Positions 7,687 to 39,930 of a DNA stretch of 43,115 nucleotides are shown here, one piece after another. The notes below the pieces were generated by a model. That model saw only the letters and a list, made by a program, of their open reading frames with translations. It did not search any database and was not told where the DNA came from. A program made the translations under genes and the position numbers. The DNA is from Roseiflexus sp. Lineage in GTDB: Bacteria; Chloroflexota; Chloroflexia; Chloroflexales; Roseiflexaceae. Where the stretch lies: NCBI GenBank assembly GCA_017743475.1, contig JAGHYV010000039.1, forward strand, positions 1-43,115. Direction: 5' to 3'. Position 1 is the first letter of the stretch. Each line of letters begins with the position of its first letter.

Positions 7687-8610
7687 CTAAACATTCCCTC
7701 CAATTGATTGGCGGACAATCGCAGCTGCCTGCTGCTGGAGATTGGGTGCGTCGGCGGGGAGGGTCAACACGTTGGGCAATCGTCGGAACCAGGCGGGTTG
7801 ACGACGGGCGAAGGCGTGGGTATCGTACTTGAGACGGGCAATGGCTTCGTCGAGCGTGATGCGCCCCTCGAAGTATGGACGAAATTCACGATACCCCAGT
7901 CCTGACATTGAGGGCAGGTCCCAGTGATAGCCGCGTTCCAGCAGTCGGCGCACCTCGTCGAGCAAACCGGCGGCAATCATTGCTTCTACACGCGCATCGA
8001 TACGGGCATACAATACGGGTGCGGGCAGGGTGAGCCAGATCGTTACAATGCGGTAGGGCGGCGGTTGAACGGAACGCTGCTCCGAAATTGGTTTGCCGGT
8101 GGCTTCGTATACTTCGAGTGCGCGGATAATGCGGCGAATGTTATTGGGAGGAATGCTGGCGGCGGCAACCGGATCAATTTCCGCCAGACGTGTGTACAAT
8201 GCTGCTGCGCCGAGTTCTGCCGCCTGACGCTCGAGCGCGGCGCGTATATCGGGTCTGGGTGCCACACGCGGCAATTGCCAACCCTGAAGAACTGCTGCAA
8301 GGTATTGACCGGTTCCGCCAACGAGGAATGGTAACCGTCCCCGCGCTGCAATGTCGGCAATGGCTGCGGTGGCAAGATCCTGATAGACCGCCAGCGAGAA
8401 TGCTTGGTCCGGATCGACGATGTCGATCAGATGATGGGGAATAGCAGCGCGATCGGAAGGGGTGGGCTTGGCAGTGCCAATATCCATCCCCCGGTACACC
8501 TGGCGTGAGTCCGCCGAGACGATCTCGCCGTTAAACTGCTGCGCCAGTTGGATGCTCAGCGCCGTCTTTCCAACTGCAGTAGGACCGACGATGGCGATCA
8601 GTGGAATCAT
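7687..8610 (-). CDS. miaA: tRNA dimethylallyltransferase
   Basis: MiaA transfers a dimethylallyl group to N6 of A37 in tRNAs reading codons that begin with U. The 307-residue protein has the P-loop GPTAVGKT (residues 9-16), the signature DSRQVYRGMDIGTAKP (about 34-49), and PHHLIDIVDP. The catalytic/tRNA-binding LVGGTGQYL block and the C-terminal RQPAWFRR segment are also present. ATG at 8610 is a clean start. It lies 46 bases downstream of the PHP-domain gene on the same strand and is probably cotranscribed with it. Confidence 0.96.
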   Translation of the reverse strand: MIPLIAIVGPTAVGKTALSIQLAQQFNGEIVSADSRQVYRGMDIGTAKPTPSDRAAIPHHLIDIVDPDQAFSLAVYQDLATAAIADIAARGRLPFLVGGTGQYLAAVLQGWQLPRVAPRPDIRAALERQAAELGAAALYTRLAEIDPVAAASIPPNNIRRIIRALEVYEATGKPISEQRSVQPPPYRIVTIWLTLPAPVLYARIDARVEAMIAAGLLDEVRRLLERGYHWDLPSMSGLGYREFRPYFEGRITLDEAIARLKYDTHAFARRQPAWFRRLPNVLTLPADAPNLQQQAAAIVRQSIGGNV

Positions 8611-31727: not shown

Positions 31728-31754
31728 TGCGGGCGTCCCGCCCGCATCGTGTCT
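31728..31754. repeat. GCGGGCGTCCCGCCCGCAT repeat copy
   Basis: AGTGCGGGCGTCCCGCCCGC here closely matches a segment near 42483-42503. It forms its own GC-rich inverted repeat (GCGGGCG/CGCCCGC). The surrounding 31557-31879 gap has no gene; it also carries the promoter for the deacetylase gene. Confidence 0.65.
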
Positions 31755-31828
31755 CCGAGAGCATCTTGCCCTCGCTCCAGGAGATATGCGAACACGCACC
31801 CCCGCTGCTGTGTCTTCAACCGACAGTA

Positions 31829-31837
31829 TGCTATAAT
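31829..31837 (+). promoter_or_regulatory. Extended -10 element for the polysaccharide deacetylase gene
   Basis: TGCTATAAT, identical to the cysS and receiver-gene elements, lies 43 bases before the ATG at 31880. Confidence 0.6.
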
Positions 31838-31879
31838 GCGCCGTCTGAACGAAGGTGAAACCAGACATCGGAACCAGCC

Positions 31880-33739
31880 ATGAAACGAACGCGGCATGCG
31901 GGTATTCTTGGAGCGGTCGCGCTTGGACTTATTCTGATGAGCACTGTATTCGTCGCAGTGCAGGAGCGGATGGGGAGCTGTGCGACTGTGCCATTGATCG
32001 CTGACGATCTGCTGGGCGCGCCCGATTTTTCCAACCTGGCGCCCGGTACGCCGACCGGCGTTCTGTTGCCGGTCGGCTGGAGCGCAGCAGCGAGCGGCGT
32101 GCAGGTTGGCGACTTTACCGTTTCCGGCACAGGGCGCTCGTTCCAACTCCTCGGCATCGCCAACCACCTCCGCACGCCCCCGGTCGCCGTGCAACCCGGC
32201 GTGTCGTACTGCGCCGTCGCGCAGGCGCTCGCCGACTCGTCTTCGGCAACACGGGTGCGCCTCGGATTTCACTGGCTCGACGCCAGCGGCAGCATCCTGC
32301 GCGTCGACTGGAGCAGTTGGCAGGAGGTGCGGCGCTGGAATGGATCAACTGACACTCAATCCTGGTCGCTGATCGGCGGAGGGTTCATCGCTCCCCCTGA
32401 AGCCACGCATCTTGCGGTAACGTTCCATCCCGCATCCGATGATCGGGTCTACCTCGACCTGATCCGCATCCAGCGCGGGCAATTCCCGCACGCTGGCGAG
32501 ATGCCGCCAGCACCGCCTGAGCGACCTGCCGGGATTGAGGCGCTTCCCTGGCCCAACGGCACACGCGCGGCGCTCTCATTTTCGTTCGATTGGGAAACGA
32601 CAATGGGCGGGTTGATCCATTCGCGTTCGGTCGATGACCCAAACGTCGATCAGGACCCGCTCATGCGAGGAATGCGGATGCGCCAGGGGATTACGACAAC
32701 GCTGGACATCTTCCGACCATACAGCATCCGCGCCACCTACTACGCAACCGGGTACAATTTCCTGACCGGCAACCGCAATCAGCGGCGTTTCATGGGAGAC
32801 CCGACGTTCACGTGGGCGAACCGCGCCAACCGCTGGCAAACCGACATCTGGCAGCAGCAACCCTGGTTCTCGCCCGATCCATATGGTACGGTAGAGACTG
32901 ATCCTGCCTGGTATTTTGGCGACCTGATCCCGCTGGTGCAGCGCGAGGGGCACGATATTCAGAGCCATACATTCAGCCACCTGTACGGTGGGCTTGCAAG
33001 CGCTGAGGAATGGCGCAGCGATCTCTCCGAATGGCAGCGCGTTGCTGCAGAACACAATATCCCGCCAGCGCGGTCGCTGGCATTTCCGTGGAGCAGCAGC
33101 GCCGGAATGAGTTATGCCAACTGGCAAGTGCTTGCAGAGGCGGGTATCACATCAGTGACGCGCACAAACTGGAATCCGCGCCAACCGCAGTACCACCTGG
33201 TGAGCAGGGATGAACCGCACTGCCGACCGGTTCCTGGACACGAAACGATCCTCGCCTGCCCGGATTTCCACCTGACGGAGCAGAGTGTCGCAGACGCGCT
33301 AGTTATGATCGAGCGTGCCATCAACACTGGCGGCATGATCGACCTGTGGGCGCACACCGAAGAAGTCGTCTCTCCGGCGCAGATTGCCTCCTGGCACAGC
33401 GTTGTGCGCTATGCCGCCGGGCGCCGCGATGCAGGCGATCTGTGGATTGCGCCGCTAGCAGAGATCGCCGACCGGCAACAGGCAGTGGCGCTGGTGCGCA
33501 TCGAATGGCGCGAATCGGAACCAGTTCACAATATGTCCTCAAACGCACCGTTGCGTTTCCTGGTTACGAACCATAGCGTACATGACCTAGAAGGATTGAC
33601 ACTCAACCTGCCGTCTGCCATCCGCCAGGCGACGTTGCGCGGCGAACAGAGCAACGCAACGCCTGTTGTTCGTGGTACGTTGCTGATATTCGATCTGGCA
33701 GCCGGTGAGACCATCGAGGTGACGGCATGGTTGGGTTAA
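31880..33739 (+). CDS. Exported NodB-type polysaccharide deacetylase
   Basis: This 619-residue protein begins with a basic residue cluster and a hydrophobic segment (about 7-27), a signal peptide or anchor. The next about 185 residues form a beta-rich, carbohydrate-binding-like region (FQLLGIANHLRTPPVAVQPG). The NodB domain follows: ALSFSFDWETTMG carries the catalytic Asp pair region and GHDIQSHTFSHLYG the metal-binding His pair. LAFPWSSS and DLWAHTEE follow. The last about 80 residues form another beta-rich domain. It probably removes N-acetyl or O-acetyl groups from surface polysaccharide, in line with the polymer genes downstream. Confidence 0.85.
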   Translation: MKRTRHAGILGAVALGLILMSTVFVAVQERMGSCATVPLIADDLLGAPDFSNLAPGTPTGVLLPVGWSAAASGVQVGDFTVSGTGRSFQLLGIANHLRTPPVAVQPGVSYCAVAQALADSSSATRVRLGFHWLDASGSILRVDWSSWQEVRRWNGSTDTQSWSLIGGGFIAPPEATHLAVTFHPASDDRVYLDLIRIQRGQFPHAGEMPPAPPERPAGIEALPWPNGTRAALSFSFDWETTMGGLIHSRSVDDPNVDQDPLMRGMRMRQGITTTLDIFRPYSIRATYYATGYNFLTGNRNQRRFMGDPTFTWANRANRWQTDIWQQQPWFSPDPYGTVETDPAWYFGDLIPLVQREGHDIQSHTFSHLYGGLASAEEWRSDLSEWQRVAAEHNIPPARSLAFPWSSSAGMSYANWQVLAEAGITSVTRTNWNPRQPQYHLVSRDEPHCRPVPGHETILACPDFHLTEQSVADALVMIERAINTGGMIDLWAHTEEVVSPAQIASWHSVVRYAAGRRDAGDLWIAPLAEIADRQQAVALVRIEWRESEPVHNMSSNAPLRFLVTNHSVHDLEGLTLNLPSAIRQATLRGEQSNATPVVRGTLLIFDLAAGETIEVTAWLG

Positions 33740-33941
33740 GGAATGCGCAGGTACGGACGCACACTACCTGGCAATTCCATCCAGGCGATTATCTGGTTGT
33801 TGTAATCTTTATCTTCACAACCGTAGTTCCCATATCTGGCTATCGGACGTCGTTGAACAACGACTCGCAGAGACCCCGGAGTTGTATATTGTGACGGAAG
33901 TTGACGGTGTTGTTGTCGTAGGATTTCGCTAGACTGCACAT
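33740..33941 (+). other. Intergenic stretch upstream of the Wzz-ABC permease gene
   Basis: This 200-base gap is more AT-rich than its surroundings. It holds a near-perfect palindrome, GTCGTTG-AA-CAACGAC (33849-33864), which could be an operator or a small hairpin. No gene and no clear promoter are visible. The start codon at 33942 has no convincing ribosome binding site. Confidence 0.4.
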
Positions 33942-35756
33942 ATGGCACACCTTGCGACGCCGGCAACCTGGATCGTGGCATTGAGCCGCCAGCGCGGACC
34001 ACTGCGGTTGTACCAGTGGCTCTGGCTGCTGATCTGCACGCTTGGCGGGCTGGCAATAGCAGCGCCGCGCATCCTCTCCCAACCGATCCGCTATGAAACG
34101 CTGGCAACAGTGCAGATCGATGTGGCAGGACGGTACCATGAGTTGTACACCGACAGCCAGCCGGACGACGACTATCGGGCAGTCGAGGCGCAGGCGCTCG
34201 AACTGTTGAAAGCACGCCATCCTGACCTTGGCGGTCCAACCTATGCGGTGCGCTTTGCGCCGCAGTCCGATGGGCGCATCGACATTATCGCCACCGGTCG
34301 GACACCGCTCGAAGCGCAGATGCTGGCTGACGAAGCGGCGGAAACCCTGGCGCGCGCGGTGCGCGCCGCTGGCGGACGCGAGATTCTGCGCAATCTCATG
34401 GGATGGGAACTGACCGAAGCGCTCCAGGGGCGTCAGCCGGAAACGACCTTCCAGCGCCTGCTGCGCGAAATCATCCGGACACAGGCGTTTCCGCTCAACC
34501 GGGCTGTCGAGCCGGTCTCGGCGTACATGACCGTTGATCAACTGCCGCGTGAAGAACTGAGCGACCTGGCGCGCGCGCTGGAGGTCCGCGAAGAACAGTT
34601 GAGGCGTATCGATATTCCCGCACTTGAGATGAGTCGCACGACTGCAACCAGCGCTGCGCTCCGGCAGATCGATGCCGACCTGTTGCGCCTGACAGCGGGA
34701 AGGCAGGCGATCCGTGACGCGCTGGCATACCTGTATCGCAACCTCAGCGCTGCCTTCCCCCCCGATGCACCCAGCGACGCCTACCGCGCGATCCGGGCGT
34801 CGCTGCCGGAACGCGCCGTTGATCGCCGTATCCCACTGCTCCTCTCGGTGGCAACGCTAGTCGGGCTGGTCTTCGGCGCAGCCGGTGTAGCAGTGGATCG
34901 CAGCGCTGGCGTCATGCGCAAAATTCTGGAACTCTGGATGTATCGTGAATTGATCCGCAACCTTGTGATCCGCGATTTGCAGGTGCGGTATAAAGGCAGC
35001 GTGCTTGGCTATCTCTGGACGCAACTGGCACCCCTGCTGCTCATGCTCGTCTTCTGGTTCGTCTTTAGCGCTTTCTTCCAGGCAGACATCGCCATGTTCC
35101 CGGTGTTCATTCTGGTCGGTCTACTGCCGTGGAACTTTGCCAGCGAAGCGGTAAGCGGCGGTACGCGCAGTGTGATCGATAATGCGCCGCTGGTCAAGAA
35201 GGTGTTCTTTCCCCGCGAGGTGCTGCCGCTGGTCTCGGTGCTGTCCAGTCTGGTGAATTTCGTACTGTCGCTGCCGATGCTGCTGCTGGTCATGGCGGCA
35301 GTTCAGGCGATGTACGCACCTTTGCGAGCAACGGGCAACTGGACGAACTTCTCGTGGACGTTCGTCTATCTGCCGGTGTTGATTGGCATTCAGACGCTCT
35401 TTCTGTCCGGGGTGGCGTTGTTCCTCAGTGCGCTAGCGGTGCGCTACCGCGATACCGTTCACCTGATCGGCATCTTTATTCAGTTCTGGTTCTTCCTTAC
35501 ACCGGTCATCTATGCCCTTGATCGGGTTGCCGGTCCGCTGGCGCAACTGGTGCGCTGGCTGAACCCGATGGCGTCACTGGTCGAGTTTTACCGCGAAATT
35601 CTGTATGGAAACGCTGTCGCCTTTGGTCAGATTCCGACCCCAAACCTCCCTGCGCTCGATAGCGTACTGCGTGTTCTGTTAACCGCCCTAGCGACCCTGG
35701 CGATTGGCTACTGGTATTTCCAGCGTCGCAGTGGTGAGTTTGGCGAGCGGTTGTAG
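33942..35756 (+). CDS. Fusion of a Wzz-like chain-length domain and an ABC-2 polysaccharide permease
   Basis: The 604-residue protein has two parts. Residues 1-325 look like a polysaccharide co-polymerase: a membrane segment at about 25-45, a long extracytoplasmic region with a Wzz-like start (YETLATVQIDV), helical stretches, and a second membrane segment at about 300-322. Residues 328-604 are an ABC-2 permease of the Wzm/KpsM/TagG type: ELIRNLVIRDLQVRYKGSVLGYLWTQLAP and six hydrophobic segments with LNPMASLVEFYREILYG. Such exporters need a Wzt-type ATPase, and none is visible here. Fusing chain-length control to the export channel is unusual. Confidence 0.82.
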   Translation: MAHLATPATWIVALSRQRGPLRLYQWLWLLICTLGGLAIAAPRILSQPIRYETLATVQIDVAGRYHELYTDSQPDDDYRAVEAQALELLKARHPDLGGPTYAVRFAPQSDGRIDIIATGRTPLEAQMLADEAAETLARAVRAAGGREILRNLMGWELTEALQGRQPETTFQRLLREIIRTQAFPLNRAVEPVSAYMTVDQLPREELSDLARALEVREEQLRRIDIPALEMSRTTATSAALRQIDADLLRLTAGRQAIRDALAYLYRNLSAAFPPDAPSDAYRAIRASLPERAVDRRIPLLLSVATLVGLVFGAAGVAVDRSAGVMRKILELWMYRELIRNLVIRDLQVRYKGSVLGYLWTQLAPLLLMLVFWFVFSAFFQADIAMFPVFILVGLLPWNFASEAVSGGTRSVIDNAPLVKKVFFPREVLPLVSVLSSLVNFVLSLPMLLLVMAAVQAMYAPLRATGNWTNFSWTFVYLPVLIGIQTLFLSGVALFLSALAVRYRDTVHLIGIFIQFWFFLTPVIYALDRVAGPLAQLVRWLNPMASLVEFYREILYGNAVAFGQIPTPNLPALDSVLRVLLTALATLAIGYWYFQRRSGEFGERL

Positions 35757-35916
35757 AGAACTGAGAACCAAGAACCGAGAACCAAGAACCGAGAACCAAG
35801 AACCAAGAACCAAGAACCAAGAACCGAGAACTGAGAACCGAGAACCAGGAACTGAGAACTGAGAACCAGGAACCGAGAACCAGGAACCAGGAACTGAGCA
35901 TTGAGAACTGAGAACT
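35756..35916. repeat. Array of 23 RRGAACY heptamers
   Basis: Twenty-three uninterrupted 7-base units (GAGAACT, AAGAACC, GAGAACC, AGGAACC and variants, one GAGCATT) start on the last base of the permease stop codon. Purines vary at positions 1-2 and C/T at position 7. The reverse strand is an open but meaningless frame of repeated Ser-Trp-Phe units. Bases 35917-35957 contain nothing recognised. Confidence 0.95.
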
Positions 35917-35957
35917 GAATTGACTCGTGATTTGGTGTTACAAACGATGCTGGTGTT

Positions 35958-38063
35958 ATGAAAACTTCGCTCGTCCAACCCTACACACTGCTTTCTGCAC
36001 AGTCTGTGCTACGTCTTCGATCTGCTCCTTTCGATAGGGCGATCTGCGACTCTGTTGCTACCGTCGCTCCCACCATCATGTCGCCCGAGCAGCAGGCGCT
36101 TCGCGCGGAACAGGCTGTCGCGCCGTGCTCGCCGCGTGCGCTCATGGCAGAAGTTCAACCTTCAACCCTCAACCTTCAACCTTCAACTCCCAATCCTCAA
36201 CCCTCAACCTTCAACCTTCAACCCCCAACCCCCAACTCGCAACGCCCACCCATCACGATCATCATCCTCACATGGAATGGTCTCGAATATACCCGCCGTT
36301 GCATCGAGAGCATTCGTGCCCACACCCACGATATAGCGTATCATCTGCTAGTGGTGGACAACGGAAGTAGCGATGGAACGCTGGCGTGGTTGCGCTCACA
36401 ACCAGAGATCAGGGTAATAGCCAATGAGCGCAACCTGGGATTTGCGCGGGGCAACAATCAGGGCTTAGCAGCAACTCCGCCGGATCACGATGTGCTGCTG
36501 CTCAATAACGACACACTGATTATTCAGGATCACTGGCTTGCGCATTTGAGCGATGTGGCGCATAGCCATCCTGCATATGGTATCGTCGGATGTACATTGC
36601 TACATCCCGATGGATCGCTCCAGCACGCCGGTACTTACATGCCAACGGATAGTTTCTGGGGATACCAGATCGGTGGCGGCGAAGCATACATCGGGCAATA
36701 TCCCGGCGTGCGCGAGGTCGAGGGGATCACAGGCGCGTGCATGTACATCCGACACGACGCACGCGCACTGTTGGGCGGTTTCGATGAAGCGTACACCTCG
36801 TACTTCGAGGATACCGACTACTGTCTGCGAGCACGTCAGGCGGGGTTCAAGATCGTCTGCACTGGCGGCGTTCAGGTGGTGCATTTCGAGAATACCAGCG
36901 CCAGGATCAATAATGCATCGTGGCAGGCGATGTGGGACAGGGGGCGGGAAACGTTTACCCGCAAATGGCGCGCTTTCTACGAACAGAAGTACTACCGTGC
37001 CATTGTCTGGCACTCACTAGTGGCGTCGCCGTCCGGGTATGCGACGTCGTCGCGTGAACTTGTGCTCGAACTCGACCGTTGTGGTATCGATGTGCGCCTG
37101 GCGTGCATCTGGGGGAATGATTTCACCGAACCGCTCACGGGTGATCCGCGGATCGACCAGTTGCGCACCCGCCCAAAAGATGTCCGATTGCCACAGGTGG
37201 TGTACCACCAGGGCGATTCGTTCATCAAGAATAGCGGACGTTACCGCATCGGCTATACGATGCTGGAAACCGACCGCCTGCCGGACGAGTGGGTCTCTCA
37301 GGCAAACCAGATGGACGAGATCTGGACGCCAACCCACTGGGGGGCTGAGGTCTTCCGCGCCAGCGGCGTGAAACGTCCGATCTTCGTTATTCCGCTGGGG
37401 ATCAATCCGAATTATTTTCATCCCGGCATTCAGGGGCGTAAGCCCGGCAACCGTTTCGTCTTCCTGTCGATCTTTGAGTGGATCGAGCGTAAAGCACCGG
37501 AAGTGTTGATCCGCGCCTACCAGCAGACATTTCGCCGTAGCGATGATGTGTTGCTGCTGCTCAAAATCTTCAACTACGACCCCAGTCTCGACATCGCTCG
37601 ACGCATTGGCGACCTGATCCGCAGTGATGGTCCGCCTGTCGTGGTGTTACCTAATCAGCAGATCGCTGCGTACCAACTTGGCTGTCTGTACCGGAGCGCT
37701 GATTGTTTCGTGTTGCCGACGCGCGGCGAAGGGTGGGGTATGCCAGTGCTGGAAGCAATGGCGTGCGGACTACCGGTTATCTCCACCGATTGGGGTGGAC
37801 AGACGGCATTTCTCAACGCAAACGTCGCCTATCCTCTACGCATTCGTGGTCTCGTTCCGGCTGAAGCGCGGGCGCCGTACTACCGGGGGTTGCGCTGGGC
37901 TGATCCCGATTTTGACCATCTCTGCGCGTTGATGCGCCACGTGTATGATCATCCTGACGAAGCGCGCGCGGTCGGTGCGCGCGCAGCCGCTGAAGCCGCC
38001 GCCCGCTGGACATGGGCGCACGCGGCAGCCACGATCATTGAGCGCCTGGAAGCGATTGGGTGA
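35958..38063 (+). CDS. GT2-GT4 two-domain glycosyltransferase
   Basis: The 701-residue protein carries a GT2 (GT-A) domain at about residues 97-340: ITIIILTWNGLEYTRRCIESI, VVDNGSSDGTL, LLNNDT and FEDTDYCLRARQAGF. A GT4 (GT-B) domain follows at about 346-700, with HSLVASPSGYATSSRELVLEL and [21 protein letters not shown]. The start is uncertain: ATG 35958, 36078 and 36144 are in frame, none with a strong ribosome binding site. A translated heptamer array (36154-36244) gives a Pro/Ser/Asn/Gln-rich linker before the GT2 domain. It probably adds two sugars to a surface polysaccharide. The next GT4 gene overlaps its stop. Confidence 0.88.
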   Translation: MKTSLVQPYTLLSAQSVLRLRSAPFDRAICDSVATVAPTIMSPEQQALRAEQAVAPCSPRALMAEVQPSTLNLQPSTPNPQPSTFNLQPPTPNSQRPPITIIILTWNGLEYTRRCIESIRAHTHDIAYHLLVVDNGSSDGTLAWLRSQPEIRVIANERNLGFARGNNQGLAATPPDHDVLLLNNDTLIIQDHWLAHLSDVAHSHPAYGIVGCTLLHPDGSLQHAGTYMPTDSFWGYQIGGGEAYIGQYPGVREVEGITGACMYIRHDARALLGGFDEAYTSYFEDTDYCLRARQAGFKIVCTGGVQVVHFENTSARINNASWQAMWDRGRETFTRKWRAFYEQKYYRAIVWHSLVASPSGYATSSRELVLELDRCGIDVRLACIWGNDFTEPLTGDPRIDQLRTRPKDVRLPQVVYHQGDSFIKNSGRYRIGYTMLETDRLPDEWVSQANQMDEIWTPTHWGAEVFRASGVKRPIFVIPLGINPNYFHPGIQGRKPGNRFVFLSIFEWIERKAPEVLIRAYQQTFRRSDDVLLLLKIFNYDPSLDIARRIGDLIRSDGPPVVVLPNQQIAAYQLGCLYRSADCFVLPTRGEGWGMPVLEAMACGLPVISTDWGGQTAFLNANVAYPLRIRGLVPAEARAPYYRGLRWADPDFDHLCALMRHVYDHPDEARAVGARAAAEAAARWTWAHAAATIIERLEAIG
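36154..36244. repeat. Array of 13 YYCAACC heptamers inside a coding region
   Basis: Thirteen 7-base units (TTCAACC, CTCAACC, CCCAACC and variants) lie within the GT2-GT4 gene. Three units make 21 bases, so the translation is a 7-residue repeat, STLNLQP, STPNPQP, STFNLQP. No start codon occurs between the array and the GT2 domain, so the array must be translated. Confidence 0.92.
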
Positions 38064-39316
38064 TGCACATCGGCGTTGACATCTCGCTCCTGCGTATTGC
38101 TCAGGCAGGCGTGTTGACCTATCATCGGTCGCTGCTCAACCACCTGGTGCGTGCAGGACGCGACTGTCGCTTCACGCTGATCGACGTGCTGCCGCTCAAC
38201 CCCGGTCGTTCGATGCCGCCGCTGGCGGCGCTCGGTGCGCCGAATGTGCGGGTTATTCGCTGCCCCGGCATTCGACGCAGCTACCTGAGCGCGCTTCCCG
38301 CGTTTCGTGACGGGATCGCGCATACCGTCGCCGCACAGATCGACCACGCCCTCGATCCGATCTGGGCGCTCCTGGCACGTGCCGAGATGGGACTGGAACT
38401 CAGAGGCGCCTCACGGTTCGTCGAGGTGTTTCACGCCTCCGATCAACTCCCCTTCGCTCCACCTGGCGCTGCCGTCGTGCTGACCATCCACGATCTGACA
38501 ACGCGCCGCTTCCCTGACATGCACGTCGCAGAGAATGCAGCGCTGCACGCAACCAAGGAGCGATTCGCCCGCGACCGCGCCGACCGGATTATCGCCGTAT
38601 CGGAGGCGACCCGCCGTGACATCGTGAGCGAACTGGGTATTCCGCCCGAACGAGTCAGCGTGGTGTATGAAGCGGCAGATGCGCGCTTCCGTCCCCACAC
38701 GCCGGACGAGACACGCACAATCCTGGAGCGGTACGATCTGGCGCATGGTGCATATGTGTTAAGCGTCGGCACCCTCGAACCGCGAAAAAACCACGTCCGC
38801 CTGATCGAAGCGTATGCGATGCTCCACGACAGATATGCGCCAGCCGAACATCTGCCACCACTAATCATCGCTGGTGGCAATGGATGGAAGTACGACGCAA
38901 TCCTGGCAGCACCGGAACAGACCGGCGTCGCCGGGTTCGTCCGGTTTCTTGGGCGCGTCCCCGATGATGACCTGCCCGCGCTGATTGCCGGATCGCGCGT
39001 GTTTGTGTATCCTTCGTTGTATGAAGGATTCGGGTTGCCACCGCTGGAAGCGCTCGCCTGCGGTGTACCGGTGGTTGTGTCGCACGCAGCGTCGCTCCCT
39101 GAAGTGGTTGGCGACGCCGGGCTATACTGCGACCCGTATGACCCGCACGATATTGCACGCCAGATAGCGGCGCTGCTGGAAGACAACGATCTGGCGCTGC
39201 GCTTACGCTATGCCAGTGTTATACGCGCACGGCAGTTCTCGTGGGAGCGCGCCGCCCGTGAGACGCTCGCAGTCTACGCACAGGCGCGTGATGAACGAAA
39301 GGCGAGGCAACGATGA
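38063..39316 (+). CDS. GT4-family glycosyltransferase
   Basis: The 417-residue GT-B enzyme starts MHIGVDISLLRIAQAGVLTYHR. The N-terminal domain has AAVVLTIHDLTTRRFPDMH and RADRIIAVSEATRRDIV. The donor domain has YVLSVGTLEPRKNHVRLIEAY and the EX7E segment YEGFGLPPLEALACGVPVVVS. ATG 38063 overlaps the previous stop by one base (TGATG); a GTG one codon earlier is also possible. The following gene overlaps its stop (ATGA). Three genes are thus translationally coupled, which points to one polysaccharide assembly unit. Confidence 0.9.
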   Translation: MHIGVDISLLRIAQAGVLTYHRSLLNHLVRAGRDCRFTLIDVLPLNPGRSMPPLAALGAPNVRVIRCPGIRRSYLSALPAFRDGIAHTVAAQIDHALDPIWALLARAEMGLELRGASRFVEVFHASDQLPFAPPGAAVVLTIHDLTTRRFPDMHVAENAALHATKERFARDRADRIIAVSEATRRDIVSELGIPPERVSVVYEAADARFRPHTPDETRTILERYDLAHGAYVLSVGTLEPRKNHVRLIEAYAMLHDRYAPAEHLPPLIIAGGNGWKYDAILAAPEQTGVAGFVRFLGRVPDDDLPALIAGSRVFVYPSLYEGFGLPPLEALACGVPVVVSHAASLPEVVGDAGLYCDPYDPHDIARQIAALLEDNDLALRLRYASVIRARQFSWERAARETLAVYAQARDERKARQR

Positions 39317-39930
39317 CGATCTACTGGGTTAATGTTGATACTCAGGATGCGCTGACCCTCATGGCAGCGGTCGAGCGCGCACTGGAAACTGGCGATACCG
39401 GGACGCCGCCGCCGCCAGGGGTTGCCGCTTCGCCCGCTGCACCCGTCAACCCGACCGATGTCTACCTGCACGACAATATGGCAATCGCACGCGCCGTCTG
39501 GTCGGTCGACCCCCACCGTATTGTTCTGTCGAGCCGACCGGGATTGGCAGCAGCAATCAACGCCTTTCAGCGCCTGGTGCGCAAGGCGACATGGTGGTAT
39601 GCCCTACCGCAGTGGTCGCAGATCAGCGAGTTCCATGGTGCCGTTGTGCGCGCGCTCGATGCGCTAATCGAAAAGGAACGAATGCTGGACACGCGAATGC
39701 GCGACATTGAGCAGATGCGGTTACAGGCGCATTTGTTTGCTCTGCAACAGCAGATCGCTGTACTGCGTGCCAGGAACGCCGAACTGGAGAGCCGCCTCGC
39801 CGCGTTGGAAGCGCAACGCGCACCCCACCAGCGCGTCGAACAAACTGGTTCGTCACTCATCGACGGGAACGAACTGCCGACAAACCCTCAAGGTGATATA
39901 ATGTCCGATGGTGCGTCACAATACCACTGA
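39313..39930 (+). CDS. Coiled-coil protein of unknown function in the glycosyltransferase unit
   Basis: I do not recognise this 205-residue protein. The N-terminal half has MTIYWVNVDTQDALTLMAAV, a Pro/Ala-rich stretch (about 32-47) and VYLHDNMAIARAVWSVDP. The middle part, AAINAFQRLVRKATWWYALPQ, has paired tryptophans. A long heptad-like coiled coil follows (about 105-177, IEKERMLDTRMRDIEQMRLQA and LFALQQQIAVLRARNAELES). There is no signal peptide or clear membrane segment. Its start overlaps the GT4 stop, so it may be a scaffold or partner of the glycosyltransferases or permease. Low certainty on role, higher that it is a gene. Confidence 0.75.
   Translation: MTIYWVNVDTQDALTLMAAVERALETGDTGTPPPPGVAASPAAPVNPTDVYLHDNMAIARAVWSVDPHRIVLSSRPGLAAAINAFQRLVRKATWWYALPQWSQISEFHGAVVRALDALIEKERMLDTRMRDIEQMRLQAHLFALQQQIAVLRARNAELESRLAALEAQRAPHQRVEQTGSSLIDGNELPTNPQGDIMSDGASQYH
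39894..39902 (+). promoter_or_regulatory. Extended -10 element upstream of the HD-GYP gene
   Basis: TGATATAAT, a perfect TGn-TATAAT, lies inside the 3' end of the coiled-coil gene, 174 bases before the HD-GYP start. Between them TCAGGCGCCTGA (40002-40013) is a perfect 12-base palindrome that could be an operator. Confidence 0.5.

Follow-up and report, generated by a model that had tools for sequence, protein, structure and literature searches.

In a Roseiflexus sp. genome, a single gene joins a polysaccharide co-polymerase (PCP) domain of the KpsE/Wzz type to a complete Wzm-type permease, and the encoded chain is probably the permease of an ABC-dependent glycan exporter in which the PCP domain forms an outer vestibule or clamp. 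The gene lies in the window, by which we mean the whole stretch of 43,115 nucleotides that was analysed (GCA_017743475.1, contig JAGHYV010000039.1, positions 1 to 43,115 of the forward strand). The open reading frame starts with ATG, contains no internal stops and encodes 604 amino acids; it is listed in Table 1 with the parts of its product and the neighbouring features. A search of the literature, limited to open-access papers, found no description of such a PCP-permease fusion.

Table 1. Positions of the fusion gene, of its parts and of nearby features in the window
Feature	Position	Strand	Basis
Fusion gene, PCP-like domain + Wzm-type ABC-2 permease	33942..35756	+	Single ORF; full-length homologues in 63/82 Chloroflexales genomes
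TM1 of PCP-like part	34008..34076	+	Residues 23-45; hydropathy and AlphaFold2 model
Alpha/beta "dome", strands 1-3 and helix	34092..34298	+	Residues 51-119; model; Wzz-profile alignment spans 25-148
Long helix	34305..34424	+	Residues 122-161; model; carries the most conserved stretch, RAAGGREILR (141-150)
Helical hairpin, "crown"-like arm	34548..34745	+	Residues 203-234 / 237-268; model; invariant D208, R211, E214
TM2 of PCP-like part	34830..34904	+	Residues 297-321; model and alignment
Junction and permease interface helix	34905..34991	+	Residues 322-350; length invariant in alignment
Wzm/TagG-type ABC-2 permease	34917..35753	+	Residues 326-604; PF01061 at 338-555, E 4.8e-17; 7k2t fold match
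Polysaccharide deacetylase gene, upstream partner	31880..33739	+	PF01522; in other genera a homologue immediately precedes the fusion at nearly every locus
Site of ~1.54-kb deletion relative to sister Roseiflexus genome G065	33829..33844	.	blastn, window vs L040
7-bp tandem repeat (GAGAACC) in place of the relatives' Wzt gene	35756..35915	+	TRF period 7, 22.9 copies
GT2 + GT4 bifunctional glycosyltransferase, downstream	35958..38063	+	PF00535, PF13692
GT4 glycosyltransferase, downstream	38060..39316	+	PF00534, E 2.4e-34

A Wzz-related domain precedes a Wzm-type permease

Both an ABC2_membrane domain (PF01061) and the Wzm fold are present in the C-terminal half of the fusion protein. The closest solved relatives of this half in a PDB sequence search are the WzmWzt structures 6m96 and 7k2t (E 2.5e-17), and fold comparison against the same structures gave TM-scores, on the target, of 0.79-0.85 (0.85 for 7k2t).

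Residues 1-325 contain two hydrophobic segments by hydropathy, modelled as helices 23-45 and 297-321. The Pfam model of Wzz, PF02706, does not match the window protein at its gathering threshold, GNVR does not match the N-terminal half, and Pfam and NCBIfam scans of this half gave nothing above threshold; among 28 relatives of the window protein, five are matched by PF02706 (best E 0.0011). Profiles were built from the N-terminal halves of 28 fusion relatives (A1) and from 21 genuine PF02706 proteins of related genomes (A2), and hhalign detected homology between the two with a probability of 95.9% (E 5e-9) over residues 25-148, which comprise TM1 and the beta domain. Reversal of either profile lowered the probability to about 5%, and of 20 block-shuffled decoys, 17 scored 2-21% and the other three 60-72%. 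These three high scores probably stem from a portion of the genuine signal and not from noise, because all of these decoys include residues ~110-142, a segment short enough to survive block shuffling. When 400 Chloroflexota genomes were searched with A1, the weak matches outside the fusion family were two-TM proteins, and seven of the eight distant matches scanned in other Chloroflexota also match PF02706 (E <=0.0011, best 3.7e-13). Searched against PDB sequences, the N-terminal profile returned nothing significant, the best PCP being Wzc (E 2.4), and NCBIfam gave no usable match for assigning the domain by sequence to PCP-3 rather than PCP-1/2. These data indicate that the Wzz resemblance of residues 1-325 is real but remote.

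The AlphaFold2 model of the N-terminal part (mean pLDDT 91, pTM 0.83) runs from TM1 (23-45) through a strand (51-59), a helix (76-92), two further strands (102-107 and 112-119), a long helix (122-161), a helical hairpin (203-234/237-268) and a last strand (280-284) to TM2 (297-321). The two TM helices thus flank one domain, presumably on the extracytoplasmic side, and the model shows an alpha/beta dome, a final strand right before TM2 and a long helical arm; the order of elements (TM1-b1-a-b2-b3-long helix-hairpin-b4-TM2) is that of the KpsE layout described in PMC11041684. In a Foldseek comparison with the PDB, all 50 of the 50 matches listed are PCPs (Wzz, WzzE, FepE, Wzc, and KpsE with KpsMT), and these matches extend from TM1 to TM2. 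The VIA-align Z score alone (values of 7-8.6) does not separate PCPs from unrelated alpha/beta proteins (8.6 vs 8.4), although the PCP alignments cover 160-230 residues and those of the unrelated proteins 75-100, in the dome only. The link to Wzz and the PCPs is established by the profile-profile and Foldseek comparisons, not by the VIA-align Z score. Taken together, these results describe a domain with a PCP-like fold and a Wzz-related profile that lies outside the Pfam Wzz family as currently modelled. The claim of the first-pass annotation, a Wzz-like part and a complete Wzm-type permease in one polypeptide, is therefore borne out by the profile link, the PCP fold and PF01061; "Wzz-like" holds by profile and fold, but not by PF02706 or GNVR for the window protein itself.

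Conservation within the domain is uneven. At 0.15 bit, the stretch RAAGGREILR (141-150) of the long helix varies less than any other part of the N-terminal half in terms of entropy, and D208, R211 and E214 of the hairpin are invariant in the alignment. PCP proteins carry a proline/glycine-rich motif at TM2 (P-x2-P ... G-x3-G); here the TM2 glycines G308 and G312 occur in 41/41 and 36/41 sequences, and prolines precede TM2 at position 289 in 38/41 and at 292 in 27/41, with a spacing unlike that of the classical motif.

The fusion is widespread in the order Chloroflexales

The class was surveyed in 158 genomes, 82 of which belong to four families (f1-f4) of the order Chloroflexales, whose members are filamentous green bacteria. 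Full-length fusions were found in 63 of these 82, pieces of the fusion in nine more (many at contig ends), and a fusion also in one genome outside the order (G087). Within the genus, five genomes carry the gene in full length, the present one included. Given its presence in five genomes of the genus and in four families of the order, the fusion is neither a chance occurrence nor a join made by sequencing or assembly. The first-pass annotation had named close relatives with two separate genes, together with an artefactual join here, as an outcome that would count against it; neither was seen, and the same fusion does occur in other Chloroflexota. Standalone Wzm relatives (37-44% identity by tblastn) belong to other families of the class, and nearly all of them have a Wzt gene downstream. 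Across the 400-genome sample of the phylum, the strong N-terminal matches all lie within frames of 574-737 amino acids, and in intact loci the N-terminal domain was never found as a separate gene and each time shared its reading frame with the permease.

Named carriers in a collection of 84,980 species include Roseiflexus, Chloroflexus, Oscillochloris, Chloroploca and Viridilinea; one fusion record titled Thermoflexus clusters with Roseiflexaceae in the permease tree. This tree requires two changes, and one change suffices in 34% of the bootstrap trees; the permease sequences may thus fit a single origin of the fusion or two. Genome G051 (family f4) contains two full-length copies, on C256 and C26, each ~42-43% identical to that of the window.

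The junction has a fixed length

G308 in TM2 and R349 in the first permease helix are separated by 41 residues in all 41 aligned sequences, and in the same alignment lengths vary elsewhere on both sides of the junction. In the full-length model, TM2 (297-322) continues directly into helices 324-333 and 335-350. In the published KpsMT-KpsE structure, the end of KpsE TM2 touches the interface helix of KpsM where this helix begins, and the topology of the fusion suggests that its fusion point coincides with this subunit contact, the arrangement of the domains being unsure in a full-length model with a pTM of only 0.60.

A Wzt-type ATPase accompanies the fusion

A Wzt-type ATPase is encoded closely downstream of the fusion (within ~1.3 kb, often from +0 bp) in 30 of 33 loci, the count covering loci with enough sequence from lineages other than Roseiflexus and its sister (G061); separation of the two genes is confined to these two lineages. 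On the fusion's contig in this Roseiflexus there is no ATPase gene, so the earlier remark that none is nearby is correct for the contig; the ATPase is nevertheless not missing. Its ortholog lies on another contig of the same genome (G000:C188:53617-54831), and a loss of Wzt from Roseiflexus was accordingly rejected. In the single-contig sister genome G065, the Wzt ortholog is 3.1 Mb away from the fusion. The C188 Wzt is 61% identical to the Chloroflexus Wzt that adjoins the Chloroflexus fusion, and both combine ABC_tran with Wzt_C, a sugar-binding C-terminal domain (PF14524, E 4.4e-27 in the C188 protein). On the grounds of this orthology, the fusion and the unlinked Wzt of Roseiflexus are likely partners.

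The genus also has a second Wzt, encoded in G065 (G065:C1:5129746-5130825; L172 3349-6000) within a frame of 883 amino acids that is far longer than a usual Wzt, with a standalone Wzm ~6 kb away.

Comparison with known polysaccharide exporters

KpsE, a PCP-3 protein of ABC-dependent export, forms an octameric cage around KpsMT (PMC11041684, PMC12220298). The fusion appears to share with the KpsMT-KpsE capsule exporter of S. thermodepolymerans (8tsh, 8tt3, 8tun) a PCP fold on the outer face of a glycan permease and a contact of the PCP part, through its TM2, with the interface helix of the permease, and like KpsE its PCP domain is associated with an ABC-2 glycan transporter. However, KpsE is a separate protein present in eight copies per KpsM dimer (8:2), whereas the domain of the fusion is covalently attached in a ratio of 1:1. 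Furthermore, KpsE works with the outer-membrane protein KpsD, whereas a search for OPX outer-membrane exporters (PF02563), positive in 4 of 14 control genomes, detected none in six fusion-carrying genomes, the present one included. A third difference is that the Wzt of the fusion has a sugar-binding domain. This Wzt with Wzt_C, together with permease fold and sequence, is shared with the Wzm-Wzt O-antigen transporter (6m96, 7k2t; A. aeolicus); known Wzm proteins, in contrast, have no extra N-terminal domain, whereas the permease of the fusion is preceded by ~325 residues with two additional TM helices. With Wzz, WzzE and Wzc (PCP-1 and PCP-2; 6rbg, 8p3p, 7nhr), the fusion has in common the plan of TM1, dome, helical arm and TM2. 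Those proteins are unfused and act with Wzy in the Wzy-dependent route, whereas the fusion locus has a permease instead, and the domain of the window is not detected by PF02706 and contains no kinase.

The first-pass annotation regarded Wzz-type folds as confined to the Wzy route and read a Wzz-type part in an ABC system as a hybrid of two pathways. The former does not hold, PCP-3 belonging to ABC-dependent export (PMC11041684, PMC12220298), and the latter was overstated. Because KpsE and other PCP-3 proteins already function alongside ABC exporters, the fusion is better regarded as a union of two subunit types known to cooperate than as proof of a pathway hybrid. What is new is the covalent PCP-permease fusion, its intrinsic 1:1 ratio, its pairing with an O-antigen-type Wzt and the lack of a detected outer-membrane exporter.

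Proposed mode of action

In the exporter that we propose, two copies of the fusion and two of a Wzt with a C-terminal sugar-binding domain, here the orphan at C188, would assemble into a transporter that flips and extrudes a lipid-linked glycan of cytoplasmic origin, for whose synthesis the glycosyltransferases encoded nearby are probably responsible. TM1 would lead outward, the dome and helical arm would stand on the outer face of the membrane, and TM2 would return and run without a flexible linker into the cytoplasmic interface helix of the permease, so that the covalent junction would copy the contact described above for KpsE and KpsM. The outer domain would most likely be a vestibule or clamp that receives the emerging glycan and guides it through the wall. 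Cryo-tomograms of Roseiflexus castenholzii reveal no outer membrane, and an examination of Chloroflexales genomes turned up neither LPS genes nor bamA (PMC7332563). A PCP-type domain would thus serve ABC export in bacteria in which these genes were not found and OPX was not detected, so that its task there must be something else than docking to an OPX-type outer-membrane pore.

The fusion fixes the number of PCP domains that each channel can itself carry. Since KpsE forms an octamer per KpsM dimer and a transporter built from the fusion contributes no more than two domains, a single transporter cannot by itself form the closed cage of KpsMT-KpsE. It is conceivable, albeit somewhat doubtful, that the fusion is a dimeric, ring-less co-polymerase, in which the two PCP domains, one on each half of a Wzm dimer, make up a twofold clamp above the exit and couple ATP-driven extrusion to extracellular handling or length control of the glycan, with no outer-membrane exporter. 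If so, it would be a third coupling of a PCP to export, besides Wzz-Wzy and KpsE-KpsM. How PCPs act, and whether they need large rings, is still argued; one PCP domain per permease, conserved across the order, makes the stoichiometry directly testable, and if the fusion and Wzt were active with two domains, an octameric cage would be unnecessary for PCP-assisted ABC export.

A role in which the PCP domain measures or limits the emerging glycan at the permease, as Wzz does with Wzy, is unlikely. The fold is shared with PCP-1/2 domains, which regulate chain length (PMC12220298), and the nearly invariant motif of the long helix is compatible with contact to a glycan or a partner. However, the PCP-3 proteins of ABC systems are assigned to the export translocon, and synthesis and export are presumed to determine chain length jointly (PMC12220298); moreover, the partner Wzt brings a sugar-binding domain of its own. 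Such a domain is the usual ABC-pathway link between export and the chain end, and in ABC O-antigen export it is the known coupling device (PMC9445017). Still less probable is a mixed cage, in which the two fused domains would seed a larger ring that separate PCP proteins complete to a KpsE-like octamer: KpsE octamers do surround one KpsM dimer, and this genome has five PF02706 loci outside the window, but none of the five shares a contig with the fusion or with its Wzt, and their Wzz proteins are highly divergent from the fused domain. That the domain is an unrelated two-TM extracellular domain, with a PCP likeness owed merely to a common arrangement, is very improbable, for although it has no Pfam or NCBIfam match above threshold and other alpha/beta proteins reach a similar VIA-align Z over the dome alone, the independent sequence-profile link stands well above the decoys and every listed Foldseek match is a PCP aligned from TM1 to TM2.

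Genes surrounding the fusion

In the loci of relatives, glycosyltransferase genes likewise lie downstream of the fusion, sometimes with methyltransferase domains. By blastn, positions 31745-33828 of the window match the sister locus L040 up to its position 8361, and positions 33845-35918 match it from 9904. The ~1.54-kb deletion lies between the deacetylase gene and the fusion and has removed most of a gene for a multi-TM membrane protein, of which a short in-frame start is left; this gene is kept in G065, G067, G069 and G061. A 7-bp repeat (TCAACCC, 36155-36248) is translated within the N-terminus of the glycosyltransferase encoded at 35958-38063. Positions 39313-39930 encode a coiled-coil protein of 205 amino acids, with no family match above threshold, which is also found beside glycosyltransferases in G065 (86%).
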